Position numbers and translations under genes: made by a program. From a virus, in IMG/VR virus record IMGVR_UViG_3300021957_000255, positions 1 through 26,155 of that record: a stretch of DNA of 26,155 bases. One strand, written 5' to 3'. Positions 1 through 25,395 of this stretch are shown piece by piece; position 1 is the stretch's first letter, and the number at the start of each line of letters is the position of its first letter. The notes under the pieces were generated by a model. It ran no database searches. It was not told the origin of the DNA and saw only the letters and a program-made list of their open reading frames with translations.

Positions 1-3000
1 ACTTGCGAGACCAGATCAACGCATCTGGTATTAACGCAACAAGTCAGACTTTCGTTACGGCACGTATTAAACAGATCACTGAACTCCTTGAAGAGTCCAC
101 CGCATACGGAAAAGAAGACGGAACCTCTATTGACTTTACCGGAACTGGAAGTGAGAGCGCCGATAAGAGAAATGCAGCAAACGCTCTGATCGTTAATCGA
201 AGAACCATTCAGGGTCAGTTGATCACTTGGATTCAAAACAATTTTGATTCGTTAGAATACGATCAAGACAAGTGTCAAAGAGACGTTGGATACATTGTAG
301 ATGCCGTGACTCACGATATTCTTTTCGACGGTTCTTTTGCTACTGATACCAATGCTCGTTCATACTGGGTTGGTAAAGATCTTAACATCGAGAACACCAC
401 AACTGCATACGAAAGTTTAGATGGTCTCGCAGACATCTGGACTAATCAATTAGGTGCCGGTGAAATTACTGCCTCACTTGCTGCATACGAGCAGTTAAAA
501 ACTATTATTAATAATTACGTCACGACTTCTACGGAAGAAGCTCGGGTTGTGGCATTAATTGAAAGGATTAGAGACGCAATCAATGCCGCAGATGGATCAG
601 CAATTCCGGTTGTTGTGCCTACTTTCACTGGCGAGAGCAGTACTTTTCATGCTATCAGATCTACGTTACAAGAGCAAGTAGTATTTTATGCCAATAGCGT
701 TTTCCCAACATACTCTTACGATCAGGCAACTTGTCGCAGAGACGTGGGATACATTCTGGATGCGTTGACCTATGATCTCAAGTACGGTGGTAACAGCGCA
801 ACCTCTATTGCGATGCGAGCATACTTCTCTATCTTTGGTAATGGTTATGCTGATCGACTTGGTCAAAGTGAACTGACTGCAACGATTGCAGCATACGAAC
901 AGTTAAAATCTATTATTGCGGGTTATACGGCAGGAACAGATTCAGGTAACATTACTAAGATCCAAAACCTCTTAGATATTATTATTCATGCTGTTGAGCA
1001 ATCTAGTATAGGAACTTTCCAACTAGGTGATTTCTTTAGTGGAGCAGCAATTTATCAATACAACTATCCGACTGGTCTTGCAGTAGGTTACGATTCACTA
1101 GTGTTTCCAAACCTTGTTAGTATAGGGGTTTCTACGACAACACCATTAATCTATACCGCATGGACTAAGTTTGAGCAAGGAACATCTGAACGACAAACTA
1201 TTATTCGACAGTCATCTGAGACAGCGCAGAACCAAGGCACAGATACTACCATCTTCTTAAAGTCTGGTGACTACACAGTTAACAACCCAATCAAACTTCC
1301 ACCCAAGACTTCTATCATCGGTGACGCACTAAGGGCAACTACGATTCGCCCACGCAACGTCGATAGCGATATCTTCTGGGTAGATAATGGTTGTTATGTG
1401 AAAGAAATCACTTTCCGAGATCATCAAAACGGTGCAGCCTGTGTGGCATTTGATCCAAGAAACGATGTTAATACTGGACCGTTCATTACTCAATCACCTT
1501 ATGTACAGAACTGTACTTCGTTGACAACATCAGGTATTGGTATGAAGATCGATGGATCCAAAGTATCTGGTCTACGGTCAATGGTGCTTGATGCATTCAC
1601 CCAGTTTAATGCAGACGGTATTGGAGTATATCTTAAAGAACGCGCCTATGCTCAGTTAGTATCTTGTTTCACGATTTCTACCTCAACGTCTATTTTGGCA
1701 GAAACAGGGGCACAGTGTTCTATAACAAACTCGAACTCTTCTTTTGGTGATCGTGGTTTAGTATCAACAGGTGGTTCTCCGTCAATATACGATGGAACTC
1801 TTCACGCAACATATAATCAGAACGATGATGTGATTCGAGTAAACGGAATCACAAACCAAGATCCTGCAAACTATTCTTTAGAAATAGGTGCGTTTAAGAA
1901 ACCAAATTACAACGATGCGATCAAATTTAGCAATGATAATTATTACTACACTGTTCTAAACGTATCTGATGAGATTACTCAAGATTGGGGAACCAGCGGA
2001 AATAGCAACGAAGGTCTTCTAGTAAACCCCTCTCCTGTGGTTAACGAGGAGTTCGGTAGTGTTTCAAAAATGTCAAGAGACGATAATTATTTATTTGTCG
2101 GGGCAAAAGGAACAGGCGCAGCAACCGGAGAAGTCGAAGTCTTTACAAGGTCCGGAACATCTTGGACTACTCAGGCAACAGTTAAACCTACCGGAACGAC
2201 CGAGAACCCTCTGCATAATAATGCCGGTGACGGGCGTAGGTTTGGTTCTTCGGTTGCATGTAACCTTGATGGAAGTCTTCTGGCAGTTGGAGCACCTTTC
2301 GATCAGAACGGTGGTGGGTTGGGAGAAAATCAAGGTAGCGTTTACGTTTATAAACGAACCGGTTCTTCTTGGGCATTCGATATAATTTTGCAACGACCTT
2401 TTGTTGCATCAACTAATGTTGTACTTGCTCTAGAAACAAGATATCTATCTATGTCTGAAGACGGTAACTGGCTTGCAGTGGCAAGCGGGGCAACTTCGGC
2501 AAGCGATACTCGTGGTCAGGTTTTTGTTTACCAGAAAGGAACAGAAGCATTAGATGGTTCCGGTGGCACTAAAGGTATAGAAGCATCGCTTACTTCCTCA
2601 TCAGGGGATTATTGGACTTTGATGCAAATAATTACAAGTCCAGTCATTAGCAATGTATCTGCGCCAGCGGTTTCTCTTAATACAACAGACGGTTCGGACA
2701 TGATTGTCGCTTGGGCAGGACAAGCAAATACTGCATACTATTATGCAAGAAACATTTTTAATACATATGGTCGAGTTCAGACAATTGTACCGGCAATGAA
2801 CCTTTCCGAAAACAATCAGCGAGCACCTGTGTTGGAACTTTCTTCCGGCGCTGATTACTTTGTTTATGGTGACGGAAATGCCCCGTTCGGTTATATAATT
2901 AATCCGTTTACCGATTCTGCTGCCGGTTCATTAAATGCGGCAAAACAATCTATTGCTTCGCTTACGACTTCTTCAAGTGCACCTCATGTTACTGCAACTG

Positions 3001-4001
3001 ACCCTGATGTCGATTTTACCAAGTATTTTAGTGCTGGTATTACGGTGAAGAGTCCGGCATGGAGCGGGGCAGGTAATAAAACGATTGCTTCATTGACGAC
3101 AAACACCATAACCTTTACAAATGGAACTGCGGTTCCAAATGCCACTACAACCAATGAAGAGATTTCTACTAGTGCGGCGGGAGCAGTCGAACTTTTCTTC
3201 TTTAATGAAGGTACTTGGGGAACGCAAGAAGTAATTACTCACGGTGATAAACAAGGGGTTTCTACTTCTAATGCTGACAACGGTCCAACACCTAATGATT
3301 CTCAGAGATTAGGTGATGAGGTGACAATTAGCGCCGATGGTTTGCTTGCAATTGCCGGAGAAAAGAACGGGGATCGTAACGCAGCATGGGTTGTTGAACG
3401 TGCAGCTTCTAACTGGGCAACGGTGACTAAACTTCAACCATCTACTATTCAAGCAGTTTCAGAAGGGGATGCTTCAAAGGATAATTTCTCTGCCAGTATT
3501 GCACTTGGATCTAAGGGAGATTATATTGCAGTAGGTGCTCCTAACAGAACTAAAGATATTGGTGCGACTCCAGCAGAAAACGGGGGAACGGTATTTAATT
3601 ACTATTCTATCCTAAATGAAACCGGATCATACAACATCACTGTTGCTCCTGGACTAAATAAACCATTAGTACAAGGTCAAACCGTTGATTTCCATCAAAG
3701 ATCTTTGATTAGTGCCTCTTCACATACTTTTGAGTTTGTGGGATCCGGTACTAATATGTTTGCGGCAGTGCCACAAAACGGCGGTATTCCTAAGAAAGAT
3801 CAGGAAGTAATATTCGATTCAGCAGGGGCGGCACAACCCAATTTTGGTTTGGTTTACTTTACCGCGACGGACGAACTGGGTGACTTTAGGATTGGTGGTG
3901 ATTTAACCATCAACCGCGAGTCGGGAACAATCACAGGAACAACGTTCGACAGATCTTTGTTCGCAGTATTAACACCTTATATTCTAGCATTAGAGGGATA
4001 A
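1..4001 (+). CDS. Large virion structural/adhesin protein with duplicated helical repeats and a seven-bladed FG-GAP-like propeller (5' end outside window)
   Basis: The frame is open from the first base, so the gene very probably starts upstream; a TTG at position 3 is an unconvincing start. Seen in order: two copies of a roughly 150-residue unit containing CQRDVGYIVDAVTHD (about base 272) and CRRDVGYILDALTYD (about base 732), each ending in AAYEQLK; then a region of short turns (FLKSGDYTV, LPPKTSIIGD, bases about 1186-1900) that looks like a right-handed beta-helix; then seven FG-GAP-like blades (about 2035-3615, for example FGSSVACNLDGSLLAVGAP); then a C-terminal domain with SSHTFEFVGSG and DELGDFRIGGDLTINRESG. 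The duplicated unit and the C-terminal domain resemble virion structural proteins of marine T4-like phages, from memory of the family. Inferred role: virion surface or tail-fibre protein binding host cells. The propeller appears inserted between the helix region and the C-terminal domain. The exact location on the virion is unknown. Confidence 0.75.
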   Translation, partial: LRDQINASGINATSQTFVTARIKQITELLEESTAYGKEDGTSIDFTGTGSESADKRNAANALIVNRRTIQGQLITWIQNNFDSLEYDQDKCQRDVGYIVDAVTHDILFDGSFATDTNARSYWVGKDLNIENTTTAYESLDGLADIWTNQLGAGEITASLAAYEQLKTIINNYVTTSTEEARVVALIERIRDAINAADGSAIPVVVPTFTGESSTFHAIRSTLQEQVVFYANSVFPTYSYDQATCRRDVGYILDALTYDLKYGGNSATSIAMRAYFSIFGNGYADRLGQSELTATIAAYEQLKSIIAGYTAGTDSGNITKIQNLLDIIIHAVEQSSIGTFQLGDFFSGAAIYQYNYPTGLAVGYDSLVFPNLVSIGVSTTTPLIYTAWTKFEQGTSERQTIIRQSSETAQNQGTDTTIFLKSGDYTVNNPIKLPPKTSIIGDALRATTIRPRNVDSDIFWVDNGCYVKEITFRDHQNGAACVAFDPRNDVNTGPFITQSPYVQNCTSLTTSGIGMKIDGSKVSGLRSMVLDAFTQFNADGIGVYLKERAYAQLVSCFTISTSTSILAETGAQCSITNSNSSFGDRGLVSTGGSPSIYDGTLHATYNQNDDVIRVNGITNQDPANYSLEIGAFKKPNYNDAIKFSNDNYYYTVLNVSDEITQDWGTSGNSNEGLLVNPSPVVNEEFGSVSKMSRDDNYLFVGAKGTGAATGEVEVFTRSGTSWTTQATVKPTGTTENPLHNNAGDGRRFGSSVACNLDGSLLAVGAPFDQNGGGLGENQGSVYVYKRTGSSWAFDIILQRPFVASTNVVLALETRYLSMSEDGNWLAVASGATSASDTRGQVFVYQKGTEALDGSGGTKGIEASLTSSSGDYWTLMQIITSPVISNVSAPAVSLNTTDGSDMIVAWAGQANTAYYYARNIFNTYGRVQTIVPAMNLSENNQRAPVLELSSGADYFVYGDGNAPFGYIINPFTDSAAGSLNAAKQSIASLTTSSSAPHVTATDPDVDFTKYFSAGITVKSPAWSGAGNKTIASLTTNTITFTNGTAVPNATTTNEEISTSAAGAVELFFFNEGTWGTQEVITHGDKQGVSTSNADNGPTPNDSQRLGDEVTISADGLLAIAGEKNGDRNAAWVVERAASNWATVTKLQPSTIQAVSEGDASKDNFSASIALGSKGDYIAVGAPNRTKDIGATPAENGGTVFNYYSILNETGSYNITVAPGLNKPLVQGQTVDFHQRSLISASSHTFEFVGSGTNMFAAVPQNGGIPKKDQEVIFDSAGAAQPNFGLVYFTATDELGDFRIGGDLTINRESGTITGTTFDRSLFAVLTPYILALEG

Positions 4002-4395: not shown

Positions 4396-7300
4396 GAGAC
4401 TCATATCGTTATCGGGTAAAGTAAAACGTATACTAGCATCAGAGTTAGACGCTGATCGTTATCAATACCTATCCCTTGAGCAAGCGGAACCGAATCCAGG
4501 GAATCCTGATTCGAATAATAGTTTGTTCATGTCTAACGCTGATGGGACTCGTAAATTTGTACGTGAACCAGAATTAGGTGGACTTTCATTCACCAATGCA
4601 AAACTTCCTAACTACGATAATGTTGTAGTTGACGGTACCTATGCACTCATATTAAACAATGACCCTAATTCCCACGATTTCGCTGATAGTGTAGGGTATC
4701 GAAAGTTAACTGCGGCGGCATTCACACCTCCAACTTTACAGACGGTAACAACTACTGGAAATACTACTGATCGAGGAATAATAATTACTAATAGTCTTGA
4801 TCCGTCAACTGGATCTGGACTTGTCATTACTGCATCAGATGCATTAAATGTTTCGGGAACATCTTTATTCTCAAATGATTTAACAATTAGCAGTGGGTCA
4901 ACATTATTTTACAATGCTCCTCCACTACTAGACAATACTATATTAACCATTGGTGATAACGATAGTGTTGGTCAACGAGAAGCACTATTTGCATTTGTCG
5001 CACCTACTTTACAGAACGTCACAGATCGATCCATTGCTGTTGATGGTGGCGATAACGCAGTTACTACAGATGGTCTGAAGGCAGCATTCTTCAAGATGAG
5101 TGATGCTCCAACATCACGGGCAAGTGTTGATGCAAGAACTGCATTGGTTTTTACTGGCATAGATGATTCTATAGGTACCCGAACTTTACGTGACCTTGCA
5201 GTAGCTGATAGCACATCTTCCGCGATTCGGGTCAATAATAATTTTACCGCCAACAAACTATATGTGCAGGATCCTTCGACCTTCACTTTACCCGCATCTG
5301 GCACCATTCCATTAGTTGTTTACACAGATGATAGCGAGTATGCTATTGTCGATATCGATGTCGAAAACCTTGATGCTAATTTCGAAACATTACTATCGGT
5401 TACGGCAAGACAAGCACCCGGATTAGACTTCGGGGAAACCACCAATGAAGCAATCTTCAGTGGAGAACTACGTTTACGTAACACAACAGTTAACACTGGA
5501 ACGATTTCTCGACAAGTTTTAATCGGTGAAACCACCGGAGTAGATAGTGCGGTAGTACGTAGAAGGGAAGCAACTTATCTTGCCTTTGGAGACTCAACCG
5601 ATAGTCAAATTACTATGCATGGGTTGATCTCCAAAGGAGATATCTCAAGTACAACAAAGGTAACTGTTCCTGATCTTACTTTAACAGGACTTTCTGCACA
5701 AGCAGGTGAGTTCACTGCACTCACTATCAATGGGTCCAATGTTGTTGGTACCAATGAAATGGTTGATGTGGCAACTACCCAAACCATTACTGGTACGAAA
5801 TCCATCGCAAATGATATTGCATTAGGATTTAATGGCTCCGCCTCGACCAATACAATTACACGTGCGGCAAACGATACTTGGAGATTCAATTACTCTGATC
5901 AGAGCATCATCTTTGATGCGGCAAACAACAATACGTTTGAAATAAGAAATAACAATGATAGTGCCATCTTCCAGATGGACCCCAATGGAGGGGCAGGTGA
6001 CGCGTCTCGATTGAACTTGATGGGCGATATCAAGGTAGAAACTTTAGGTGTTACGACGACCGAAGCAACTTCGGTTATGATTGATACAAACGGAGTATTT
6101 CTATCTCGGGAATTGTCAACGAGCGCATTTACCGATCCTGGTCTCGACGATGTTACTGCAATAGATCCTACCACAACAGATCAAATTACAACGGGTGGTA
6201 TTGTTACCACTGGTCCATCGAGTTTCACTGACAGTGTACGGTTTGCGGATCCGATTCTTGGTCAGGTAAATTTCACTGACTCAGTTTTTGCAGACGGTAA
6301 CTTTTATCTTCCCAATATACCGGCAAGCACTTCGCTTCGGGTTTTGGTAAAGAACACGGCAGATGACCAAGTTGCATATCAAGACATTTCTCAAGAAGCA
6401 TTTTCTGGAGAGACCTTACACACTGCAACCTCACAGGGTCAGGCAACATCTAATAACGTAGGTGCGGCATCATTCTGGGTTTATGACGGTACTGGTTTTA
6501 ATGATAACGATTCTCTCGCTGAATTTGTAAGAGTTATTGATTCTGCAAGAGATTTTTATGTTCAGGATAAAGTCTTCTTCAATGATAATCATGCGGCAAA
6601 CCCAACTAATGACGGAGATCGCAACTTCATACGTTTCACTGATCCCGCATTCCAAGGTTATCCAGGAATATATGATTTCATATCAGATGACAGTGATGAT
6701 GCTTCTTCTGTAGGTAATGCTCTCTTACGCGCAGGAGGATTAATTCTTACCGACTCCGCATTAGTAGGTGGTAATCTGACAATTACCGGCAACTTAACGG
6801 TGAATGGTACACGAACTATAATTAATACGACACAATTGACGATTGATGATAAAACGATTGTCATTGCAGACAATGCTCCAGATGAAGTGTCCACTGCCGG
6901 TGCAGGATTGTATGTTACGGATTCTGTCAATCCTTATGCGAAATTTACCTATGACGGCGCAGGATCTTGGGTCAGCAATAAAAACCTTACTATAGATTCA
7001 GACCTTATAGTTTCGGGTGCCACATTATTAGATGGTAACTTTAACGGTGATGGTGGATTGAGTCTGCTCGGTGCAGTCGAACTTTCCACTGAGGCTACTG
7101 CATTAATGCTGGGCGCAAACGATTCGGTTGGTTATCGAGAATTGTCTTCGGGTGCGTTTACTAATATTGATAACGTAACATGGAATTTTGTCCTTGGCAA
7201 AGGAAGATTCTCCGGTAATGAAGTGCCGTACATTCAAGCAGGACTTCAGATTGATTCAACCGGTCTAAAACCTGATCAGGGTGGAACAAGAATTATCACT

Positions 7301-9769
7301 CTAATAGGTGATCAAGATTCCGTTGGGGTGTCATCTATTCAGTCTACGGCATACGAACCCCTTGCCAATTTCAATCTACAGTTTGTTACGAACCGAGGTG
7401 CGAGCACCGATAAGAGAGTGACAATAAATGATTTGATGATATCGACTGCCAAAGATTTCGATGCGTCTGCCAACAATACTCAACTTGCACTTCATTACGA
7501 CAACGGTACTGACTCTGTGGGTTATAGAGACCTTGGGAGTTTGGCATATCTTGATTCGGATGGAGAAACTTTTAAGAGTATTACTGAGAAAGGTAATGCT
7601 GTTAATACCTCTTTAGCCAACATCAAAGTTAACGGGTTAATGATTGACAGTGCTCGGGCAATGTCAGGAATTACTGTCGGAATGATGTACAAATCTTCAA
7701 CAGATTCCGTGGGTGTTCGGGCATTATCTGATGCGGCATTCTTAGATCCTGGTTTAACCGAAGTTCTTGCTCAAAATGACTCAACGAAACTTTCCGCAAC
7801 CTTTGGGGGATTAATTCTTCCTAAGCATGGAACTCCAGTTGCAGGATCACCTAATGTTCTGGTACCCGGTGACGCAGATTTCTTCCAAATGCTTATCATC
7901 AATCAGGACAATGATAGTGTTTCACGAGGAGATATAGGAACAATTGTACAAACGGTCTCTCAGGAAACCTTACAGTCGGTTACTAGTAGAGGGGCAGCTC
8001 TTAATAATAGTAGTTGGGATTCTAGTACTGTTGGAATCGATTTGAGTGGTGGACTTAAACTTAGAAATCTTCCCGAAACAAGTGGAGATTCTGTTCTGGT
8101 TGCCAATACCAACGGTACGGTCGCATACAGAAAGTTAAGTGATCTACAGGCAGCAATCAACTTAAATACCGTTGTTACTAATGGCCCAACAACTGATAAA
8201 GAAATCGGTGTCAAAGAACTTTACATATATGATGGATCCGGTTTCACCGCTGGTACTGATGCCGTAGCAACAAACCATGTACTCACGATTGATGAAAACC
8301 GTAATGCGTTTTTTGCAAATCTTGATGCTACTGGTCTCACCACACTTGACTCGACCACAATTGATGGTGACTTGCAAGTATCTTTAAATCTCAACGTAGA
8401 TGGTCTTACAACATTAGACTCGACCACGATTGATGGACGTTTAACTGCCAACGGCGGTATTAATGGATTGACTCTAGCCAATGGTGGTATTACTGGCAAT
8501 AATTTTAATATTGAAGGTGTTAACGTCCTTAGCATCGCTGATCCAGGCGAAGGTATTGTGTTTCAAGGCAATACTTCTGGAAATATAACCTTAGCGGTTG
8601 TGGATGATACCTCTGATAACATCTTACAAGTTATTGGTAGTGCTAACACAATATTTCAAGTACCAAATTTCGATGCTACTGGTACCACCACACTTGACTC
8701 AACTGCGATAGATGCTGGTGTTAATGGTGATGGATTAACAATACCGAACCTTGGAGAAGTCACTACAAACACTGATATTCTTACTATCAACGGTGATGTT
8801 GTAAGTAAGACTGCTTTCAGTGACATATATACGGTGCCGCCTACTCCTACTCTGCAATCAGTAACAGATGTTGGGTCAACGACTACCAACGATATTGAGA
8901 TTAGTGATAATTATCTATCAATAATTAATACTGACGGTAGTTATGCTTTCAGAGCAAATGTCGGTGTCGATACATTCAAAGTAAATAACATATCTCCTGT
9001 AATATCGAAGACTGGTATTGTAGGAGATGATGCGACTACCGGTGCATTACAGATTCATCGTCACGGTGCTAATGCTCTTGGACCATATTTATTCTTGTCT
9101 AAAAATAGGGGGACTGATTTACTTGACCCTGTTATTGTCGCCAGCGGTGATAGGTTAGGCACCATCGCCTTTGGTGGAAATGATGGAACTGTTGCATCGA
9201 TACCAGGCGCAGAAATAAATGTAATAGCTGAGGGAACACAAGGCGCGGGTGATATTGCTGCCACAATGAATTTTTATAATTATTCGTCTGGTGTTAAAAC
9301 TCAGACGATGTCGGTTGCTCTGGATTCAGTCAGAGTAGACGGACAGTTCAGTGTTTTCCATGATACTGTTGGTTCCGAAGTTCTGATTAATTCGACATCG
9401 CAAATACCCATTCAGATTCATAATAATAAGACTGTAGCGTGGGACGCGGCGGGTTACAAATCTGTTATTGAAACGAAGATGTTTTCTACGGATACAATTA
9501 TTCATAAACATTTTATCAATACATTAGATGCTTCGGGCGGTGCTGGTGATACAGTAACATATAATTCACAGTTGTATGATATTGGCGGAACTATTCAATC
9601 GTATTCTTTCCAAACCGAATCTACTTTTGGATTTGATATTGGTGGATTGAAAATGTCACTAGATGCTAACAAAATGCAATTACAAACCGGTGTTCAACTA
9701 CAAGATGCCGCAGGAACGAATCTAGTTATTTACGATTCAGCAGGGGATGTCCTCTGGGGGAACGTATAA
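4388..9769 (+). CDS. Giant repetitive tail-fibre-like structural protein, 1,793 aa
   Basis: The N-terminus (MAKRLISLSGKVKRILASEL) is followed by a long low-complexity, Asp/Ser/Thr/Asn-rich body built from two alternating motifs. One is DSVGYREL-like (about bases 4685, 4960, 5165, 7120, 7505, 7700). The other is LQSVTxxGxxT-like (about 4735, 5010, 5390, 6415, 7377, 7970, 8850). Near base 6775 lies a segment with GNLTVNGTRTIINTTQLTID and DDKTIVIADNAPD, a pattern common in fibres of marine T4-like phages. Three TTLDSTTIDG-type repeats sit at 8326-8715. The beta-rich C-terminus ends GDVLWGNV; I see no self-cleaving chaperone domain. The length, repeats and position suggest an elongated trimeric fibre or fibre-shaft protein. 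Whether it is a long tail fibre, a short fibre or a neck fibre cannot be told. Its start overlaps the preceding stop by eight bases. Confidence 0.78.
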   Translation: MAKRLISLSGKVKRILASELDADRYQYLSLEQAEPNPGNPDSNNSLFMSNADGTRKFVREPELGGLSFTNAKLPNYDNVVVDGTYALILNNDPNSHDFADSVGYRKLTAAAFTPPTLQTVTTTGNTTDRGIIITNSLDPSTGSGLVITASDALNVSGTSLFSNDLTISSGSTLFYNAPPLLDNTILTIGDNDSVGQREALFAFVAPTLQNVTDRSIAVDGGDNAVTTDGLKAAFFKMSDAPTSRASVDARTALVFTGIDDSIGTRTLRDLAVADSTSSAIRVNNNFTANKLYVQDPSTFTLPASGTIPLVVYTDDSEYAIVDIDVENLDANFETLLSVTARQAPGLDFGETTNEAIFSGELRLRNTTVNTGTISRQVLIGETTGVDSAVVRRREATYLAFGDSTDSQITMHGLISKGDISSTTKVTVPDLTLTGLSAQAGEFTALTINGSNVVGTNEMVDVATTQTITGTKSIANDIALGFNGSASTNTITRAANDTWRFNYSDQSIIFDAANNNTFEIRNNNDSAIFQMDPNGGAGDASRLNLMGDIKVETLGVTTTEATSVMIDTNGVFLSRELSTSAFTDPGLDDVTAIDPTTTDQITTGGIVTTGPSSFTDSVRFADPILGQVNFTDSVFADGNFYLPNIPASTSLRVLVKNTADDQVAYQDISQEAFSGETLHTATSQGQATSNNVGAASFWVYDGTGFNDNDSLAEFVRVIDSARDFYVQDKVFFNDNHAANPTNDGDRNFIRFTDPAFQGYPGIYDFISDDSDDASSVGNALLRAGGLILTDSALVGGNLTITGNLTVNGTRTIINTTQLTIDDKTIVIADNAPDEVSTAGAGLYVTDSVNPYAKFTYDGAGSWVSNKNLTIDSDLIVSGATLLDGNFNGDGGLSLLGAVELSTEATALMLGANDSVGYRELSSGAFTNIDNVTWNFVLGKGRFSGNEVPYIQAGLQIDSTGLKPDQGGTRIITLIGDQDSVGVSSIQSTAYEPLANFNLQFVTNRGASTDKRVTINDLMISTAKDFDASANNTQLALHYDNGTDSVGYRDLGSLAYLDSDGETFKSITEKGNAVNTSLANIKVNGLMIDSARAMSGITVGMMYKSSTDSVGVRALSDAAFLDPGLTEVLAQNDSTKLSATFGGLILPKHGTPVAGSPNVLVPGDADFFQMLIINQDNDSVSRGDIGTIVQTVSQETLQSVTSRGAALNNSSWDSSTVGIDLSGGLKLRNLPETSGDSVLVANTNGTVAYRKLSDLQAAINLNTVVTNGPTTDKEIGVKELYIYDGSGFTAGTDAVATNHVLTIDENRNAFFANLDATGLTTLDSTTIDGDLQVSLNLNVDGLTTLDSTTIDGRLTANGGINGLTLANGGITGNNFNIEGVNVLSIADPGEGIVFQGNTSGNITLAVVDDTSDNILQVIGSANTIFQVPNFDATGTTTLDSTAIDAGVNGDGLTIPNLGEVTTNTDILTINGDVVSKTAFSDIYTVPPTPTLQSVTDVGSTTTNDIEISDNYLSIINTDGSYAFRANVGVDTFKVNNISPVISKTGIVGDDATTGALQIHRHGANALGPYLFLSKNRGTDLLDPVIVASGDRLGTIAFGGNDGTVASIPGAEINVIAEGTQGAGDIAATMNFYNYSSGVKTQTMSVALDSVRVDGQFSVFHDTVGSEVLINSTSQIPIQIHNNKTVAWDAAGYKSVIETKMFSTDTIIHKHFINTLDASGGAGDTVTYNSQLYDIGGTIQSYSFQTESTFGFDIGGLKMSLDANKMQLQTGVQLQDAAGTNLVIYDSAGDVLWGNV
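8326..8715 (+). repeat. Imperfect repeats encoding TTLDSTTIDG in the giant fibre
   Basis: Three copies of a unit of about 36-40 bases are visible. They encode ATGLTTLDSTTIDGDL near 8325, VDGLTTLDSTTIDGRL near 8396, and ATGTTTLDSTAIDAGV near 8673. The first two are about 70 bases apart and the third is about 280 bases further on. The DNA is similar but not identical (cttgactcgaccacaatt versus ttagactcgaccacgatt), so this is an older duplication rather than a recent slippage. Confidence 0.8.
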
Positions 9770-9772
9770 ATA
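9765..9772 (+). promoter_or_regulatory. T4-type late promoter box TATAAATA spanning the fibre stop codon
   Basis: This is an exact match to the T4 late promoter consensus TATAAATA. It contains the TAA stop of the giant fibre gene and ends immediately before the ATG at 9773. T4-type late transcripts start several bases downstream of the box, which would fall at or after this ATG. If active, it would therefore mainly serve gp13 and downstream genes. No -35 element is expected for this promoter class. A chance match is possible. Confidence 0.5.
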
Positions 9773-9967
9773 ATGCATAATGAGAACCACATTTCTAAAA
9801 GCAAAAGAAATACTAGTAGAGGACAAGCGCAAAGGACCCTGATGCTAGAGAAGAAAAAGAATCGTGGATCAAAAAGAGGTAAGGTTCCTTTTGTTAAAAT
9901 GAAAACCAAGAACAGAACCGAACTCGCAGCAATGTATAAATTACTTCAAGATAAGGTAGAAGGTTAA
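9773..9967 (+). CDS. Small highly basic protein, 64 aa, unknown function
   Basis: This 64-residue protein has 18 Lys/Arg and only 5 Asp/Glu, with a basic core (LEKKKNRGSKRGKVPFVKMK) and a short possible helix at the end (ELAAMYKLLQDK). A GGGGGAA stretch about ten bases upstream of ATG 9773 could serve as its ribosome-binding site. It is squeezed between the fibre gene and gp13 with three- and five-base gaps, which supports a real co-translated gene. The charge suggests binding to DNA, RNA or an acidic protein surface, but no known fold is recognised. It has no Cys or His cluster for a zinc site. I do not know a T4 equivalent. Confidence 0.6.
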   Translation: MHNENHISKSKRNTSRGQAQRTLMLEKKKNRGSKRGKVPFVKMKTKNRTELAAMYKLLQDKVEG

Positions 9968-9972
9968 AAACA

Positions 9973-10725
9973 ATGGCATCTCCCAACTCAAGACAAACAT
10001 TGATAGATTTCTGTCTTCGAAGACTAGGCGATCCTGTCATCGAGATAAACGTAGATGTAGATCAAATTGAAGATAAAGTTGACGATACTTTACAATTATA
10101 TCAGGAATTTCATTCTGATGCAACCTATCGAACGTACTTAAAACATAAAGTTACACAAGCAGATAAAGACAATGGATACATTCCCATCAGTTCTAATATC
10201 TTATATGTGTCAACGGTTTTACCAATCAATCCAACCTTTTCTACAATCAACATGTTTGATATCAAATATCAAATGATGTTAAATTCTATGGGAGACTTCA
10301 TGAACTTTGCGGGTGGTATGTCTTATTACTACCAGATGCAACAGTATCTTGAATTTCTTGACAGTGTCTTAAGTGGTACGCCCAAAGTTAATTTTTCACG
10401 TAGACAAGATCGACTGTACATATATGGCGAGTGGAGTAATGGCGATCTTAATGTCGATGATTATGTTGTTGCAGAAGTCTATACGGTAGTTGATCCAGTT
10501 ACTTTCCCATCTGTTTATAACGATATGTTCGTAAAGAATTTTTTAACTGCACAGATCAAACATTCATGGGGAACTAACATGTCTAAGTTTGATGGGATGC
10601 AACTTCCGGGCGGAGTAACAGTTAATGGTAGGCAAATGATGGAAGAGGCAAATGCCGAATTAGAAAAACTAGAAGAGAAAATGCGTTTGGAACATGAATT
10701 TCCGCCAGATTTTTTCGTGGGTTAA
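9973..10725 (+). CDS. 13: Neck protein gp13 (head completion)
   Basis: The 250-residue protein opens with the family signature LIDFCLRRLGDPVIEINVD followed by VDQIEDKVDDTLQLYQEFH, as in gp13 of marine T4-like phages. T4 gp13 is about 310 residues, so this is a shorter version. In T4, gp13 and gp14 form the neck that seals the filled head at the portal vertex and provides the site where the tail joins. The C-terminus (NAELEKLEEKMRLEHEFPPD) is a charged helix. GAAGG nine bases before ATG 9973 is a good ribosome-binding site. It is followed after three bases by gp14, which matches the T4 order. Confidence 0.88.
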   Translation: MASPNSRQTLIDFCLRRLGDPVIEINVDVDQIEDKVDDTLQLYQEFHSDATYRTYLKHKVTQADKDNGYIPISSNILYVSTVLPINPTFSTINMFDIKYQMMLNSMGDFMNFAGGMSYYYQMQQYLEFLDSVLSGTPKVNFSRRQDRLYIYGEWSNGDLNVDDYVVAEVYTVVDPVTFPSVYNDMFVKNFLTAQIKHSWGTNMSKFDGMQLPGGVTVNGRQMMEEANAELEKLEEKMRLEHEFPPDFFVG

Positions 10726-10728
10726 AAA

Positions 10729-11646
10729 ATGGCTACTAATTTATATTTCAAGCAAGGTGCACGAAGTGAGCAACTTCTATACGAAGACTTAATTGTTGAG
10801 AGTCTAAAAATGTATGGGCAAGATGTTTACTATATGCCTCGGGATTCAATTAATATTGACGATATATTCAAAGACGAATCTTCTGCACGATTCGACAATG
10901 CTTATAAAATTGAAATGTATATTGAGAACCTGGAAGGGTTTGATGGTGAGGGCGATTTGTTTGCGAAGTTCGGTGTTGAGATTCGTTCACAAGCAACCTT
11001 TGTTGTTGCACGGCGAAGATGGTTACAATCTATTGCACCCTATGAGAACGATCCCGATGCGGAAGGTAAAAAATTCTTCAGACCCCGAGAAGGCGATTTA
11101 ATTTCTCTTCCTCTATCTGGTTCTATTTTTGAAATTACCAAAGTCTTCGACGAAACTCCGTTTTATCAATTGAAGAATCTTCCAGTATTTCGTCTCAGTT
11201 GTGAACTGTTTGAATACAGTGGAGAAGATTTCGATACTGGTGTAGACACCATAGATAACGTAGAGAAGTTTGGTTATACATACAACTTGACATTCGATGA
11301 TGTTTCGGTTGGAATTTTAGGAGGAACACCAATATTTGAAGTAGGGGAGCAAGTGACTCAGGTAACATCTGGTTATACACTGAGTGCAGATGTTACTGCC
11401 TATGATGCAGGGAATCCTCTTGCACGAGTATTGAGTGTTGTAAACTTCAGTGCGTCAGACGGACTGTACCACTCGTTTAATACAGTAGATTCTATTGTAG
11501 GATTATCTTCCGGAGCCACGGCAAGACCAATTGCCGTGGCAGAACAAATTGAGAATTCCACAAACGAATCTCAGAACTTAGAATTTCAAACGGTTGCTGC
11601 CGGTCTCTTAGATTTTTCTGACACTAATCCATTCGGAGATCCATAA
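10729..11646 (+). CDS. 14: Neck protein gp14 (head-tail connector)
   Basis: The 305-residue protein carries the gp14 signatures YEDLIVESLKMYGQDVYYMP near the N-terminus, YKIEMYIENLEGFDGEGDLF, and FGVEIRSQATFVVARRRW. T4 gp14 is about 256 residues. The extra length is in the C-terminal third, which is beta-rich (VGEQVTQVTSGYTLSADV, LSSGATARPIAVAEQ) and resembles a small add-on beta domain. It acts with gp13 to finish the neck after DNA packaging. It starts three bases after gp13 ends and its TAA stop directly abuts the gp15 ATG, so gp13-14-15 are probably translated as a coupled set. Confidence 0.88.
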   Translation: MATNLYFKQGARSEQLLYEDLIVESLKMYGQDVYYMPRDSINIDDIFKDESSARFDNAYKIEMYIENLEGFDGEGDLFAKFGVEIRSQATFVVARRRWLQSIAPYENDPDAEGKKFFRPREGDLISLPLSGSIFEITKVFDETPFYQLKNLPVFRLSCELFEYSGEDFDTGVDTIDNVEKFGYTYNLTFDDVSVGILGGTPIFEVGEQVTQVTSGYTLSADVTAYDAGNPLARVLSVVNFSASDGLYHSFNTVDSIVGLSSGATARPIAVAEQIENSTNESQNLEFQTVAAGLLDFSDTNPFGDP

Positions 11647-13557
11647 ATGTTAGGCGAATGGTTTTATCACCAAAGAATTAGAAAAGCAACTGCCGTCTTT
11701 GGCACGTTGTTTAATAATATCAGTGTCGTAAGAAAAAATAGTAGCGGCGAAACTATTAGTCAAATAAAAGTACCTTTGTCTTATGCTCCTAAGAGAGATT
11801 TTGTTTCTCGCATTTCGCAAATGGAAATGGGGGAAAATCAAGAGAGACAGATTGCTATTAAACTTCCTCGTATGTCCTTTGAAATTGTGGCATTTACCTA
11901 TGATGCGGCACGGCAATTACCTAAAATTTCTTCAAGAACAGTACCTTCAAGTACTGGAGCATCCACTGCCCAACAACTCTACAATCCGGTTCCCTATAAC
12001 CTCAGTTTTCAATTACATGTGTATGGTAGGAGCCAAGACGATTGTTTGCAGGTAGTCGAACAGATTCTCCCTTACTTCACTCCACAGTACAACGTAACAA
12101 TCAAGCCCTTGGACGATTTCGATTTCCTCGAAGACGTTCCGATCAAACTAGACGGCGTGACATATTCGGATGACTACGAAGGCGCATTAGAAAATAGACG
12201 AACTATTATTTACACCCTTGATTTCGAGATGAAGATATCTTTATATAAAGGTGTGCCGACTGCAACTGGTCCTATTCTTGATGTTACAACTAACTTCTAT
12301 AACATGGGTACCAATAATTTATTAACATTTATTAATTGTCTTGCTAATCAACCCACCGGTATCACCGGCACTACAACAGAAGATGGTCCGGCAAGTACTG
12401 GAACATTTAAACTGTCCAACACTCTGAATCCTATATATGATTCTGCGGGAGATGTGATCGGTTCTCCTTTCTCTATTGAGTCTGGTGACAGCGCGTCCTT
12501 CGGTGTAAGCACTATTGTAGGAACAACTGGAGCATGGTCATACACTCCCAATGCAGATTTCTTTGGGACCGATACATTCAAGATTGCAACTGATGTAGGA
12601 CAGAACGTTACAGAAAAATTCGATATTACAGTAACCGTCTCTTCAGCAGATGGTGATGCAGTAGATGATGTGTTCAACTGGTCCAATGATGGAACGTCTT
12701 TAGTTATGAATGTTTCTGCTAACGATACCTTTGAGACCACTGGAACTATTACACACGCTGTGGAAACGCAGCCGAACGCGGGTACTGTTACTATCATAGA
12801 TTCTCTTGCTGGAACATTTCGATGGACACCTCCGTCCCCGACGTTCACTGGATCCGTCACGTGGGAATATCGTGCCATACCAACCGAAGCGGCACAATCA
12901 TCGGAGGTTGCTGAAGTCACTATAAACGTTGCGTCACCTGATATCCTGTATCCGTTAAGCAATACCACAACAGATCCTACTAACACCATTTGGAGAAATA
13001 ACCACCCAACTTATCAGTGGGTTGCAAACGTTGGTATTTTAATGCCAGCAGGATCACCTATTACTGATATGGGTAGTATGTTCAGAAATAATCCAACGTT
13101 CAATGATCCTGATATTAGTTCTTGGGATGTGAGTGATGTTATTGAAATGGATTTTATGCTCGAAAGTACTGACGTATTCAACCAAGATATTAGTTCTTGG
13201 AATGTCATTAATGTTACTAATATGAGTTCTATGCTCCAAAATACTGACGCATTCGACAATGGTGGTGTTGCATTAAATTGGGGTAATAAAACTGCCAATG
13301 TTCTACGCATGGATTATATGTTCAACAACGCCGACAGCGGTATATTCAACCAAGACATTAGTTCTTGGAATGTGAGTAGTGTTACTGATATGACCTCTAT
13401 GTTCCGGAACCAGTCAGTATTCGATCAAGACATTAGCAATTGGAGTGTATTGAATGCTAGTGTTGCTCCTGGCAATTCAACGCCACCTACAGGTTTTGAC
13501 ACTGGTACCAGTGTCAACTGGACAATCGCTGAGAAACCTCAATGGGGAACGAGCTAG
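11647..13557 (+). CDS. 15: Tail sheath stabiliser gp15 fused to cadherin-like and BspA-type leucine-rich repeats
   Basis: Residues 1 to about 225 are gp15-like: MLGEWFYHQRIRKATAVFG, IKVPLSYAPKRDF and LPRMSFEIVAFTYD match tail completion proteins of marine T4-like phages. T4 gp15 is 272 residues and caps the tail as a hexamer where it meets the neck. This protein is 636 residues. Residues about 238-332 read as a cadherin-like or VCBS-type domain (AWSYTPNADFFGTDTFKI). Residues 333-427 read as a second (DAVDDVFNW, FRWTPPSPTFTGSVTWEYRA). Residues about 465-610 are DUF285/BspA-like leucine-rich repeats (FNQDISSWNV, VTDMTSMF). The frame is continuous across all parts, so this is a true fusion in this sequence. 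GGAG eight bases upstream supports the ATG. The inferred effect is six copies of an adhesive arm at the head-tail junction. Confidence 0.85.
   Translation: MLGEWFYHQRIRKATAVFGTLFNNISVVRKNSSGETISQIKVPLSYAPKRDFVSRISQMEMGENQERQIAIKLPRMSFEIVAFTYDAARQLPKISSRTVPSSTGASTAQQLYNPVPYNLSFQLHVYGRSQDDCLQVVEQILPYFTPQYNVTIKPLDDFDFLEDVPIKLDGVTYSDDYEGALENRRTIIYTLDFEMKISLYKGVPTATGPILDVTTNFYNMGTNNLLTFINCLANQPTGITGTTTEDGPASTGTFKLSNTLNPIYDSAGDVIGSPFSIESGDSASFGVSTIVGTTGAWSYTPNADFFGTDTFKIATDVGQNVTEKFDITVTVSSADGDAVDDVFNWSNDGTSLVMNVSANDTFETTGTITHAVETQPNAGTVTIIDSLAGTFRWTPPSPTFTGSVTWEYRAIPTEAAQSSEVAEVTINVASPDILYPLSNTTTDPTNTIWRNNHPTYQWVANVGILMPAGSPITDMGSMFRNNPTFNDPDISSWDVSDVIEMDFMLESTDVFNQDISSWNVINVTNMSSMLQNTDAFDNGGVALNWGNKTANVLRMDYMFNNADSGIFNQDISSWNVSSVTDMTSMFRNQSVFDQDISNWSVLNASVAPGNSTPPTGFDTGTSVNWTIAEKPQWGTS
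13072..13450 (+). repeat. DUF285/BspA-type leucine-rich repeat array in gp15
   Basis: Four to five units of roughly 23-30 residues are seen. They carry ITDMGSMFRNNPTFNDPDIS, SWDVSDVIEMDFML, FNQDISSWNVINVTNMSSML, VLRMDYMFNNADSGIFNQDI and SWNVSSVTDMTSMFRNQSVF. The DNA unit attagttcttgg recurs near 13114, 13187 and 13359. This pattern is typical of bacterial surface proteins (BspA, mycoplasma lipoproteins) and some bacterial and phage adhesins. Confidence 0.85.
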
Positions 13558-13561
13558 AATT

Positions 13562-16500
13562 ATGCATAACGGATCCACAGACAAAAATCGTAGAAATATT
13601 AACCTAAAAGACCCTGCAATTAAAGAGGTTCTACCGGAATATTTTGGCGCATCATATCCTAAATTTATTCGATTACTCGAACGATATTATGACTTTGAAA
13701 AAACCAATGAGACCACAGAACTGCTGTATCATTTGTTTTCTTCTCGCGACATTACGGAAACCGATATTGCCCTTCTTGATTTTATAGAAGACGAACTTTT
13801 ATTGGGACAAAGTTATTATCAAGGATTCCCTGATAAAAGAGCTGCGGCAAACTTCTCTAGTATTCTTTTTCGAACAAAAGGTTCTCGATACTCTATCGAG
13901 TGGTTTTTTCGATCCTTTTACAATATCGATCCTGAAATATTTTACACTAAAAATGATATATTTAAGATCGGCACGACATCCAGTTTTATTGGACCAGACA
14001 GTTTAAAGTTTTTACATGACGATAAGTTATATCAAACCTTTGCATTGTTAATCAAAACTTCTTTGCCCGTTGATAAATGGAAAGATATCTATAAACTTTT
14101 TGTACATCCAGCAGGCATGTACCTTGGTTCCTCTGTGTTACTTGAATCGACTGCCAACTCCGAAACGGCAGAAGACGCAACAGGAGCAGATATTGAATTT
14201 TATAATTCGCCGGTATACACTGTGAGTTCCGGAACTACAACGCCAGAAGGCAACACATATACAGTATTAATTCAACAGACACAGTTAACGCCTCCTGCGC
14301 CTCCCAGTTACACTAATCTATTTTATTACGTGGAATTACTTACCGCAGAAGTTGGCGATTTTACCACGCCCCCTAATTTAGATTCTAATAACCTAACTCC
14401 CATAGTTTTACGTCAAAACACAGCATCATTTGATTTTACCTTTGTTGATGACAATGATTATGCGGAAGGAGACGAAGTATTTAACGTACATATTTACGAT
14501 GGTCCTAGTATTACTAGGAATCGTTTGATCGGTACTTCGGTTCTTACTATAGGAAACATCTTACCAGTTTATACAGTAGTATTAGATTCCTATGCTGAAA
14601 CCGAAGACATGTCAGGTACTGTTGTAGTGACAGGAACTATATCAACTGCACATCCTAACGGATTCACTCCGGCATTCATAGGTGAAGCGGTGACACTCTC
14701 CTTTACTGGTGGTATTGCATCGGATTCTCGGGTAAGCAATTTACAGTTTACCGATGCTGATGCGGGTTCAAACTCGGGTAGCATGAATACTGTCTCCAAA
14801 ACATTCAGTTTTGATATTGCAGGAGATCGGCAATTACAAGGAGTCGTTACAGGTAATGTTCGAGTAAATGGTGTCGTTGTTGGTAATTCAACCACATTTA
14901 CTCTCAGTGATGCTGCTCCAGTTTATGAATTGGTAGTATCAGATACCACCGTAACAGAACAATCAGGAGCAACCATAACATATGATTTAGGTGCAAACAC
15001 ATCTAACATTGCAGATGGTACCTATTACTTCTGGACAACCGGTACTGGAACAGCAGAGGTTGAATTCAATGGTGGGGCATCACCTCTTACCGGATCTCGC
15101 CTTGCCTTTACGGTTACCAATCAACAAATAAGCAATGTTACAGGTATCGGGGCATCGGTTAACATACCCATTGATATTTTAGATGATACGATTCCGGATG
15201 GAGATAAAACACTTCAAGGTAACTTCCATACTGCCAACACCGGTGCCGCAACGACACAGAGTGGGGTGACCACGATTACTGACAATGAGGTAGTGCCCGA
15301 CTTCGACACTGTTACATTGTTCTCTGATGCAGGAAGAACTGTAGCATCCACCTCCTTTAACGAGGGTGACACTATTTACGGTAGATTGGTTACTTCAGGA
15401 TCTGCTCAAGGTGAGACCATCACATACCAATTCGTTAACGGTGATGCCCGAACAACTGACACGGATACCAGTGTTCATGCTACATCAGGAAACCAAGACT
15501 TTACCCTCGTACTTGGTTCGGATATTTCCACAATTAACGGATCTCCTGCTGGATTAATAGTTCGGTGCTCAAGTTCAGGAACATATGCTAACAATTTAGA
15601 TACTGGCACAATAACCATTGTTGATGAAACCATATCTTATACGGCAGCTGCAGTCTCTTCATCGGTCACTGAAGGTAGTTTATTGCAAGTAGAATACACT
15701 GCAACACTTGCCGGTGGCGCAAGTTATGAAAATCTTATCATAGCGGTTGCCGACAACGGAGACTCAAGGGTAACTGCTGGTAATTATGCAATCACTTCCA
15801 CTCAGTTCGGTCTTGCAGATCCTGGTGCCACTGGCGTTAGTACTGTAACATTGTCTATTGCTTCAACGGCAGATCCAGCAGTAAACGGAGACGGGACTAT
15901 TGAATTTGTGGGAACAGGAGCAGTCTACGGGCAGGGTTCTGTCCCTGCTCAAGTGGATATCACAGTTACTGATGCTACACCCTCTTATGGTGCATTTAGT
16001 GTTTCACCCACATCCATAGATGAAGATGGAACAGTGGCAGAGTTCGAATTACTTGCCTCCAATGTTGGAGTCGGCGTAACTGTTGATTGGATATCAAATG
16101 CTACCGGTGGTGTTGAATATATTGGACCGGATCTACAAATTTCATACACCAGCGCTGTTGCAGGATTTGCTAACTTGACTCAAAATTTCGGAACAATCAC
16201 TCGGGCAGGGGATGGTAACTTTAGATTCTGGGTTCGGGCAATTGCCGATCTTGCAGTAGACAATGAGAATCCTGAAGACTTTATAGTAACTATTGCGGCT
16301 AACGATTCGAATGCTACCGCAACAGGTGGACCGAGTGCCACACTTGAAGTTAACGACACAAGTATTCCTCTAACACCAACATATGCTATTCAAGGTTCCA
16401 ATCCGCTTACTGTTAGTGAAGTTGCCTCCGCACAAACTATCACAGTTAACACTACTAACGTTACAGACGGAACTACTTTGTACTGGAACATTACCACCGA

Positions 16501-17740
16501 TGCTCCCGGATCAACACAGGCATCTACTGACTGGGCGGCATATAACTCAGGTGGTACTGGATTTACTATCAATAGCAATACAGGTAGTTTTTCAATTGAC
16601 GCACTTGCGGATACTACAACAGAAACTGCGGAAACTTATTACTTGCAGGTTAGAACGGGTAGTGATACCGGATCAATTCAAGACTCGATTCAGTTAGACA
16701 TCACGGATGATAGTGTTACTGCAAATGCTCCGACTGTTACGCCCAGTACTACAACACCCACCGAAGGTGATACAGTTACCTTTACATTCGGTGAAGCAGC
16801 AGGGTCTGCGGCACAAACATATTACTTCGAGATCAAGCATGGCACAACGAGTAATGCTGACTTTACCGCTGTGCCTCCTGGCAATACTCCAACGGCAAGA
16901 ACTACTGTTACGTGGAACGGAACATCTTTCTCACCCACCTCGGTGGCGGTAACACTTGCAGGAGCAGGCGGCGCAGACGGTGTGGATGATAACGAACAAT
17001 TTACCGGTAAATTGTTTGATGCTGTGACTGGCGGAACTGAAGTAGCAACTACTGCAAACATTACAGTGACAGATGATCCTGTCGTTATCAATTTTGCCTT
17101 TGCAACAACATCTACTGATATAAATTTAGATGGTGCTTCAGGCGGAGGTCAGGTATTTACCGAAGTCACTTTATTTAATAACGGTGATGCTACGGTTGCA
17201 AACTCTTTTGCTGATTTTTTCAGTACAGGAACAGTGGTTACAAACAGTGTTACTCCCACTATAGCCAGTGATAACTGGGTAGAGGCATCTGAACATGTTG
17301 CAGGTTTTGGTGATGATTATCAAATCCAAGTGAATTGTTACACAGACAATACTAAGACCACCAGATTACCTGGCAATAATACACGATCTAATGATTTCCC
17401 GAATTCGCCAGCTAATAATGGCAGTTACGACACTATATTCCTGTTCAAAGGAACAACGAATTTAAACGGTAACGAAGCAGGGGTGACTAATGTTCAATGG
17501 GAACAAGATGATACGAACCCAGCATGGTTTCAAATGGATGAAGATATTAAAATTCAACTGAAGTGTGATGTTGCGGGCTTTGCTGGCAGTGGATACGGGT
17601 TGTCAGGACTAGGCACTGCTACACCTATCTACATTGAGTTTATTATCAAGGAGTATGCAGGAGTTCTTGGTACAGGAACGACTGTATTGACTGCTGGATT
17701 TGAAGCAGCAATACGCATAGATAATAGCAGCACACAGTGA
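13562..17740 (+). CDS. Giant neck/tail structural protein with about eight CalX-beta-like repeats, 1,392 aa
   Basis: I chose ATG 13562 (MHNGSTDKNRRNINLKDPAI), five bases after the gp15 stop. The frame is open back to 13454 only because it shadows gp15. The N-terminal 200 residues form a helical domain (LPEYFGASYPKFIRLLERYY, FRTKGSRYSIEWFFRSFYNI) that resembles virion structural proteins encoded beside gp15 in marine T4-like phages. From about 14212 to 17085 come eight units of about 115 residues with the CalX-beta pattern, in which a start such as VTEGSLLQVEYTATL ends in ITVTDATP or TITDNE. The C-terminal 215 residues form a different domain (VTLFNNGDATVANSF, PIYIEFIIKEYAG). I infer a long flexible rod anchored by its N-terminus at the tail or neck. 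The repeats often bind calcium in other proteins; DDTIPDGD and DDNDYAEGDE are candidate sites. Confidence 0.78.
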   Translation: MHNGSTDKNRRNINLKDPAIKEVLPEYFGASYPKFIRLLERYYDFEKTNETTELLYHLFSSRDITETDIALLDFIEDELLLGQSYYQGFPDKRAAANFSSILFRTKGSRYSIEWFFRSFYNIDPEIFYTKNDIFKIGTTSSFIGPDSLKFLHDDKLYQTFALLIKTSLPVDKWKDIYKLFVHPAGMYLGSSVLLESTANSETAEDATGADIEFYNSPVYTVSSGTTTPEGNTYTVLIQQTQLTPPAPPSYTNLFYYVELLTAEVGDFTTPPNLDSNNLTPIVLRQNTASFDFTFVDDNDYAEGDEVFNVHIYDGPSITRNRLIGTSVLTIGNILPVYTVVLDSYAETEDMSGTVVVTGTISTAHPNGFTPAFIGEAVTLSFTGGIASDSRVSNLQFTDADAGSNSGSMNTVSKTFSFDIAGDRQLQGVVTGNVRVNGVVVGNSTTFTLSDAAPVYELVVSDTTVTEQSGATITYDLGANTSNIADGTYYFWTTGTGTAEVEFNGGASPLTGSRLAFTVTNQQISNVTGIGASVNIPIDILDDTIPDGDKTLQGNFHTANTGAATTQSGVTTITDNEVVPDFDTVTLFSDAGRTVASTSFNEGDTIYGRLVTSGSAQGETITYQFVNGDARTTDTDTSVHATSGNQDFTLVLGSDISTINGSPAGLIVRCSSSGTYANNLDTGTITIVDETISYTAAAVSSSVTEGSLLQVEYTATLAGGASYENLIIAVADNGDSRVTAGNYAITSTQFGLADPGATGVSTVTLSIASTADPAVNGDGTIEFVGTGAVYGQGSVPAQVDITVTDATPSYGAFSVSPTSIDEDGTVAEFELLASNVGVGVTVDWISNATGGVEYIGPDLQISYTSAVAGFANLTQNFGTITRAGDGNFRFWVRAIADLAVDNENPEDFIVTIAANDSNATATGGPSATLEVNDTSIPLTPTYAIQGSNPLTVSEVASAQTITVNTTNVTDGTTLYWNITTDAPGSTQASTDWAAYNSGGTGFTINSNTGSFSIDALADTTTETAETYYLQVRTGSDTGSIQDSIQLDITDDSVTANAPTVTPSTTTPTEGDTVTFTFGEAAGSAAQTYYFEIKHGTTSNADFTAVPPGNTPTARTTVTWNGTSFSPTSVAVTLAGAGGADGVDDNEQFTGKLFDAVTGGTEVATTANITVTDDPVVINFAFATTSTDINLDGASGGGQVFTEVTLFNNGDATVANSFADFFSTGTVVTNSVTPTIASDNWVEASEHVAGFGDDYQIQVNCYTDNTKTTRLPGNNTRSNDFPNSPANNGSYDTIFLFKGTTNLNGNEAGVTNVQWEQDDTNPAWFQMDEDIKIQLKCDVAGFAGSGYGLSGLGTATPIYIEFIIKEYAGVLGTGTTVLTAGFEAAIRIDNSSTQ
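14212..17085 (+). repeat. Eight tandem beta-sandwich (CalX-beta-like) protein repeats
   Basis: Units start near 14216 (YTVSSGTT), 14571 (YTVVLDSYAE), 14926 (YELVVSDTTVTEQSG), 15301 (FDTVTLFSDAGRTV), 15634 (SYTAAAVSSSVTEGS), 15985 (SYGAFSVSPTSIDEDG), 16379 (TYAIQGSNPLTVSE) and 16733 (TVTPSTTTPTEGD). Most end in an I-T-x-x-D strand. They are divergent at DNA level, so the array is not recent. The first unit is the weakest match. Confidence 0.7.

Positions 17741-24305: not shown

Positions 24306-25395
<1,090 letters not shown>

Follow-up and report, generated by a model that had tools for sequence, protein, structure and literature searches.

The window, that is, the whole 26,155-base IMG/VR record analysed here (IMGVR_UViG_3300021957_000255), carries the T4-type structural gene set gp13, gp14, gp15, a 1392-aa ORF, terS (from 17764), terL, gp18, gp19 and gp20, in this order. 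Two of its neck genes are of ordinary length: gp13, the head-tail adaptor (9973-10725, plus strand; PHROG 211, E 2.5e-39; clade length CV 0.01), and gp14, the head closure protein (10729-11646, plus strand; PF11649, E 9.8e-30; length CV 0.02). They are followed at 11647-13557, on the same strand, by a single 636-aa ORF with an ATG start, a TAG stop and no internal stops. Its product consists of a gp15 core, two cadherin/Ig-like domains (residues ~231-430) and a DUF285/PARCEL ("BspA") module (residues ~431-636). The next gene, the 1392-aa ORF (13562-17740, plus strand), is not part of gp15; it has a partial Baseplate_wedge match near its N-terminus (PF23786, E 7e-10, residues 102-186), contains many repeat-like stretches, has no counterpart in Phage C48C1, and shows only patchy DNA identity to relatives. 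After the portal gene, an ORF at 24292-25395 encodes a long collagen-like Gly-X-Y repeat.

The closest portal protein to that of the window belongs to Phage C48C1 (Kyanoviridae; 67.6%), followed by those of OM43, SAR11 and cyanobacterial myophages at ~51%. The window belongs to a group of uncultured T4-like bacterial viruses that are apparently marine. The cyanophage-host marker psbA had no match in eight records, a weak absence since these are fragments, and a search for the host in bacterial genome contigs returned a distant DUF285 match only.

Domain architecture of the extended gp15

The gp15 core (tail-sheath stabiliser or sheath terminator) occupies residues 1-219 (11647-12303, plus strand). 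It matches T4-gp15_tss in Pfam over residues 6-219 (PF16724, E 8.4e-67, model positions 2-208 of 245), the solved T4 gp15 over residues 5-218 (PDB 4huh/3j2m, phmmer, E 9e-29), and PHROG 227 (E 3.7e-73). Together with the gp13-gp14-gp15 order, these matches bear out the identification as gp15 made in an earlier sequence-only reading of this DNA, and the uninterrupted frame agrees with its claim of about 400 in-frame residues beyond the core. Past the core, a short transition (residues 220-230; 12304-12336, plus strand) lacks the acidic "DxDFGF"-type C-terminal motif, which in other gp15s normally lies at about residues 236-248; the motif is missing from the window gp15 and from all 43 related sequences of the Ig type.

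The first cadherin/Ig-like domain (residues ~231-333; 12337-12645, plus strand) has matches to Cadherin_5 (residues 268-330, E 3.8e-4) and tand_rpt_95 (E 1.8e-7), each below its own cut-off, and its AF2 pLDDT is mostly 82-94 over residues 231-330. The second (residues ~337-430; 12655-12936, plus strand) matches Big_9 above the cut-off (E 4.7e-10, 40.7 bits against 23.6, best stretch 338-425). The full-length AF2 model, built with 16 sequences, was confident for residues 232-431 only and not for the gp15 core. In this model the best structural match of the second domain (residues 337-432) was the collar protein of Agrobacterium phage Milano (VIA-align Z 11.6, rmsd 1.7 over 85 residues), which reflects a shared Ig fold and is no proof of a shared function. 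The next matches were the phage 7-7-1 collar (10.6) and cadherins (Z ~9), several of which spanned both Ig domains. The cadherin-like domains proposed from sequence alone were therefore recovered, through Big_9 and through these fold matches.

A repeat module of the DUF285/PARCEL (BspA) type forms the tip (residues 431-636; 12937-13554, plus strand, with the stop codon at 13555-13557). It matches DUF285 (PF03382, E 2.7e-34, 117.9 bits against a cut-off of 25, best stretch 470-562) and TIGR02167, named PARCEL in NCBIfam (32.7 bits against a cut-off of 30). Direct repeats coding DISxW units extend over 13100-13448 (plus strand), with copies at 13100, 13175, 13343 and 13418; the 75-nt spacing at the DNA level corresponds to tandem units of ~25 residues. 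A dyad-symmetry check of these coding repeats found no inverted pairs of at least 14 nt. Modelled alone with AF2 (20 sequences), the module had a mean pLDDT of 73, and the top Foldseek rows were mostly leucine-rich-repeat proteins, none at E <= 0.001. The BspA domain of the sequence-only reading is confirmed, and is refined to the DUF285/TIGR02167 (PARCEL) repeat. The fibritin family was absent among the Pfam and PHROG matches of this gp15.

By these profile matches the protein is classed as gp15 through its core and as DUF285/PARCEL through its tip. We regard it as a gp15 with a replaced C-terminus, its core membership being based on the PF16724 and PDB matches and on its position and single copy. 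Each of ten longer related records contained one gp15 gene; the window, for its part, is a fragment of 26 kb. Provided that those records are representative, the fused gp15, being the sole gp15 found in each, must do the essential job. A second, plain gp15 hidden in the same genome was sought and found in none of the ten, most of which are fragments. In the two longest DUF285-bearing records DUF285 occurred on gp15 only, and we rejected it as a general gene family of these phages.

Recurrence and exchange of the tip

A scan of IMG/VR viral contigs with the gp15 core yielded 80 loci, 75 of them with a complete gene. Since these loci are the closest matches of four queries, and not a random sample, the fractions given here hold for those neighbourhoods only. 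Extended gp15 genes (416-1269 aa) made up 73 of the 75; the two short ones were L082, from another clade, and L008, which has a frame break. One separately named contig (L003) was 100% identical to the window over the whole gene, and another (L011), with a gp15 core of 66% identity, had the same three-part architecture in frame, so that homologues with the same extension, for which the sequence-only reading had proposed a search, do exist. The Ig pair was kept in 43 of 43 distinct Ig-type sequences, which differ mainly in the tip: 33 have the Ig pair only, four add a LamG lectin (PF13385, E 8e-13 and 3e-14 in the two scanned), four a long FG-GAP region of beta-propeller type (PF14312, E 4e-11 and 2e-10 in the two scanned) and two DUF285. 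A large ORF at the start of the window (3-4001) also has an FG-GAP match (E 2.8e-5), a repeat type shared with some of the relatives' gp15 tips.

The frame break in L008 lies at ~4600, just past the core, where it has one base fewer than L006; the next frame encodes the Ig part and a DUF285 tip. This break may be a sequencing error. L008 and L006 share 211 of 215 core residues, yet L006 is a LamG phage and the tip of L008 is DUF285. Among cultured phages, none of 50,697 phage records spans 80% of the window, Ig-only, LamG, linker-DUF285 or cupredoxin gp15; the sole record in the phage collection that covers 80% of any extended gp15 tested is Pelagibacter phage Mosig itself. The gp15 of Bellamy (333 aa) was considered as a cultured match and rejected, having another C-terminal insertion with no DUF285 or Ig match.

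Gain or loss of the tip can be seen between nearly identical phages. Two contigs (L004 and L005) share 99.1% identity with the window over 9671-12929 and 98.2% over 13555-15825, and lack only the 625 bases between those flanks (12930-13554, plus strand), that is, the tip; flanks and junction sequences show 8 bp in its place. Substitution rates also point to exchange. Between the window and L011, dS was saturated in the core, 3.1 in the first Ig domain, 0.19 in the second and 0.07 in DUF285. Core against tip, dS was 1.4 and 0.02 for L006/L020, 2.1 and 0.10 for L006/L013, saturated and 0.26 for L023/L025, and above 2 or saturated and 0.09-0.22 among L202, L216, L224 and L236; a single pair (L009/L025) had an old tip (dS 1.7). 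Since cores saturated at silent sites carry almost identical tips (dS 0.02-0.26), the tips move by recombination. Consistently, close to where the module starts, sliding DNA identity rises sharply from ~60-75% to 90-100%; past the gene it drops again. To judge from this pattern, homologous recombination, with conserved core or Ig segments as anchors, is the likeliest cause of the exchange. Most pairs had a tip dN/dS of 0.15-0.44 and the window/L011 pair 0.67, while L006/L020 had too few changes for a judgement; the values being mostly below 1, the tips look translated and constrained. The fusion, its recurrence and the exchange of modules are established by these comparisons.

We compared the length variation of gp15 with that of its neighbours at the same loci in three clades. 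The CV of gp15 length was 0.41 in the window clade, 0.12 in the L082 clade and 0.51 in the C48C1 clade, against 0.04 or less for gp13, gp14 and gp19 and moderate values (0.01-0.09) for the sheath protein gp18. The modules sit on gp15, not on its neighbours. The gp18 tail sheath itself is ~731-742 aa long in the window and L082 clades and ~519 aa in the C48C1 clade.

Separate extensions in other lineages

Extended gp15 genes were also found outside the window clade. Most C48C1-like gp15s have 251-267 aa, and 14 complete genes (10 distinct proteins) have 672-695 aa. These long forms are an intact gp15, acidic C-terminal motif included, followed by a linker, in most of them rich in Pro and Glu, and by a DUF285 array that is longer than that of the window and ~38% identical to it. 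They are scattered on the gp15 tree, where at least four label changes are forced; all tip labels together required 15 changes, compared with 52.6 on average after shuffling (on a quick tree with SH-aLRT support only). The linker-DUF285 form on C48C1-type gp15 is an independent solution in a second lineage. One record (L089) has a DUF285 match (2527-3858) shortly after gp15 (1005-2012) and outside the gp15 frame.

A cupredoxin-like domain of plastocyanin type (Copper-bind, E 7e-5) is fused to the C-terminal end of gp15 in four members of the L082-like clade (L166, L169, L170 and L171). The cultured Pelagibacter phage Mosig EXVC030M (L281, 8389-9984) has a gp15 of 532 aa, whose extension has a weak laminin LG match (E 0.0017) and no Pfam family; all 77 complete IMG/VR relatives of this gp15 are unextended (255-269 aa). 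Like the window gp15, that of Mosig thus bears an in-frame C-terminal extension of adhesion type; unlike it, it has neither the Ig pair nor DUF285, and keeps the usual C-terminal motif. HTVC008M, which grows on the same SAR11 strain as Mosig, has a plain 271-aa gp15, and any role of the extension would therefore be accessory.

The acidic motif was present in 70 of 74 plain gp15s and in 14 of 14 with a linker or cupredoxin, and in none of the 43 of Ig type. These counts indicate two building plans, one in which the extension is added after an intact C-terminus, and another, in the window clade, in which it replaces the C-terminus.

Possible role of the extension

In T4-like phages, tail fibres are the usual place to look for variation in host binding, together with fibritin at the neck. 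The gp15 of T4 is specifically the sheath terminator, the tube being capped by gp3 (PMC11784142, PMC3004832); its hexamer sits on the final ring of the sheath, with residues 203-245 as the docking site of gp14 (PMC3004832, PMC12270204). The window gp15 resembles it in the aligned core (residues 5-218) and in the gp13-gp14-gp15 order upstream of the terminase genes. It differs in that T4 gp15 ends at 272 residues, whereas here ~400 residues of Ig/cadherin-like and DUF285 sequence replace the usual C-terminal motif. We think that gp15 probably has two jobs in these phages, a ring core and a displayed Ig stalk with an exchangeable tip acting as an ancillary adhesin; its six copies, outward placement and adhesion are predicted from homology and domain type. 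Residues 1-219 would form the normal hexameric ring, end the sheath and dock to gp14. The C-terminal part would be displayed six times per virion around the neck, the two cadherin/Ig-like domains serving as stalk and the ligand-binding tip standing at the end: DUF285/PARCEL in the window phage, while relatives have a lectin of LamG type, a long FG-GAP region or no tip at all. The tip may make weak, multivalent and reversible contacts, its partners being glycans or proteins of the host cell surface or of particles that hosts inhabit; these contacts would precede or support attachment by the tail fibres. Variants would spread by recombination, the gp15 core and often also the Ig stalk providing homologous anchors.

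The placement of six adhesive arms at the neck, as in the sequence-only reading, would follow from homology to the gp15 hexamer. If the layout of T4, XM1 and Milano holds, the six extensions would exit the ring at the boundary of sheath and neck; one may speculate that sheath contraction, moving the neck towards the cell, could bring the arms into reach. In XM1 and Milano, however, the C-terminal arm of the terminator augments the top sheath ring and is buried there (PMC10457771, PMC10491603), which would count against a displayed adhesin. The nearest experimental precedent is a carbohydrate-binding module in the neck-passage structure (NPS) of a lactococcal 936 phage, which bound host cells weakly (PMC6669499); as a warning, the carbohydrate-binding module at the neck-fibre tip of A-1(L) did not bind its host (PMC10966104).

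A role as an ancillary adhesin fits best with the repeated acquisition of unrelated surface domains and with their recent exchange, and we weighed it against several other explanations. The Ig pair, with or without the tip, could instead be a structural collar that wraps the neck and reinforces the head-tail or sheath-neck junction with no outside ligand. The pair is indeed the constant part and, in all 43 sequences, stands where the usual C-terminal motif would be, and its second domain is most like the Milano collar protein (Z 11.6), which surrounds the neck (PMC10491603). We nevertheless consider a collar unlikely, because the tip can be missing, varies greatly and was swapped recently, none of which a purely mechanical part would need, LamG and DUF285 are typical surface or ligand domains, and the Z-score reports one common Ig fold, not a function. 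It is improbable, too, that the arms contact the long tail fibres and control how these retract or assemble, in the manner of T4 fibritin, which is located at the neck and binds fibres (PMC3004832, PMC12270204): the tips differ among near-identical phages, although a constraint from partner fibres would be expected. The search for Fibritin_C was uninformative, giving no match in nine records and none in the controls either, and as it was silent everywhere we rejected the absence of fibritin as a reason for the arms.

A neutral or selfish origin, with DUF285/PARCEL and other mobile coding repeats landing at a tolerant gp15 C-terminus to little or no benefit of the phage, would agree with the known behaviour of PARCELs, which are horizontally spread coding elements of patchy distribution (PMC2996958), a pattern repeated here, and with the window/L011 tip dN/dS of 0.67. 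We hold it to be quite improbable, given that different unrelated surface domains occupy one site repeatedly, that most tip comparisons have a dN/dS of 0.15-0.44, and that the nearby gp13, gp14 and gp19 have no similar extension. Finally, a sequencing or assembly error joining two genes, the case named in the sequence-only reading as refuting the fusion, could be suspected from the purely metagenomic origin of the data and from the frame break of 1 bp that separates core and Ig part in L008. Independent contigs refute it: the identical gene occurs in the separate contig L003, the in-frame homologue has a core of 66% identity, 73 of 75 relatives are extended, and a second lineage has its own, separately built gp15-DUF285 fusion. 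The chance of such an artefact is close to negligible.

On the best reading, therefore, gp15 serves time and again as the platform on which an exchangeable ancillary adhesin docks, in six copies at the neck, with binding and virion location as predicted features. In its gp15, cadherin-like and BspA/DUF285 parts, this agrees with the sequence-only reading, which had missed the extension across the clade, the exchangeability of the tip and the tipless near-identical phages. More generally, and here we are tentative, putting the chance a little short of even, the sheath terminator of contractile-tailed marine phages could be a general site at which recombination plugs in domains of receptor or particle-binding type (DUF285, LamG, FG-GAP and cupredoxins), and so a second, neck-located adhesion system that evolves apart from tail-fibre specificity.

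Adhesion decorations of virions are already known from fibritin and from lactococcal neck-passage proteins, and the gp15 fusion is a variant of those. Fibritin (gp wac) is likewise a neck appendage with swapped C-terminal modules, which in RB43 and KP-15 include Ig-like domains (PMC3797505), but it is a separate trimeric coiled-coil protein held by gp13, and its module swapping is reported to be ancient and to have ceased (PMC3797505), whereas the window-type gp15 tips are recent (dS 0.02-0.26). The NPS and tail-protein extensions of 936 phages similarly carry exchangeable carbohydrate-binding modules on neck and tail, of which one neck module bound host cells (PMC6669499); the NPS, however, is a separate protein of siphophages, while here the module lies within the sheath-terminator gene of contractile phages. 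The gp15 extension probably works like fibritin with Ig domains or NPS modules, although it belongs to neither. Milano collar gp13 and XM1 collar spike gp40 also place Ig-like folds at the neck, and XM1 gp40 binds the terminator (PMC10457771), but these collar proteins are separate and not fused to it, and the Milano collar has no fibres. Other PARCEL/DUF285 proteins (mycoplasma surface lipoproteins, ORF200 of Vibrio phage pir03 and a protein of cyanophage ACG-2014f) belong to the same PF03382/TIGR02167 family and are horizontally spread and surface-located (PMC2996958, PMC7765460); in the window, unlike in those, the repeats sit at the tip of a neck protein that is essential to the virion. 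A literature search, with most subscription journals outside its reach, found nothing on C48C1, on gp15 extensions, or on gp15 as a carrier of such modules.

Swappable surface domains are here found on an otherwise little-varying core morphogenesis protein, and are gained or lost between phages of ~99% identity. On this evidence, adhesion parts seem to be plugged in and exchanged at the neck of these viruses. Should the tips bind cells or particles, adhesion would have a second site at the neck, and gp15 length and tip type would be niche markers in uncultured marine phages. Mosig and HTVC008M, which share one SAR11 strain and have gp15 with and without the extension, offer a starting comparison. 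A ligand-type domain near the neck genes also occurs in Methylophilales phage Melnitz (L282), where a gene at 5011-7044, between terS and terL, carries an F5/8 type C domain annotation.
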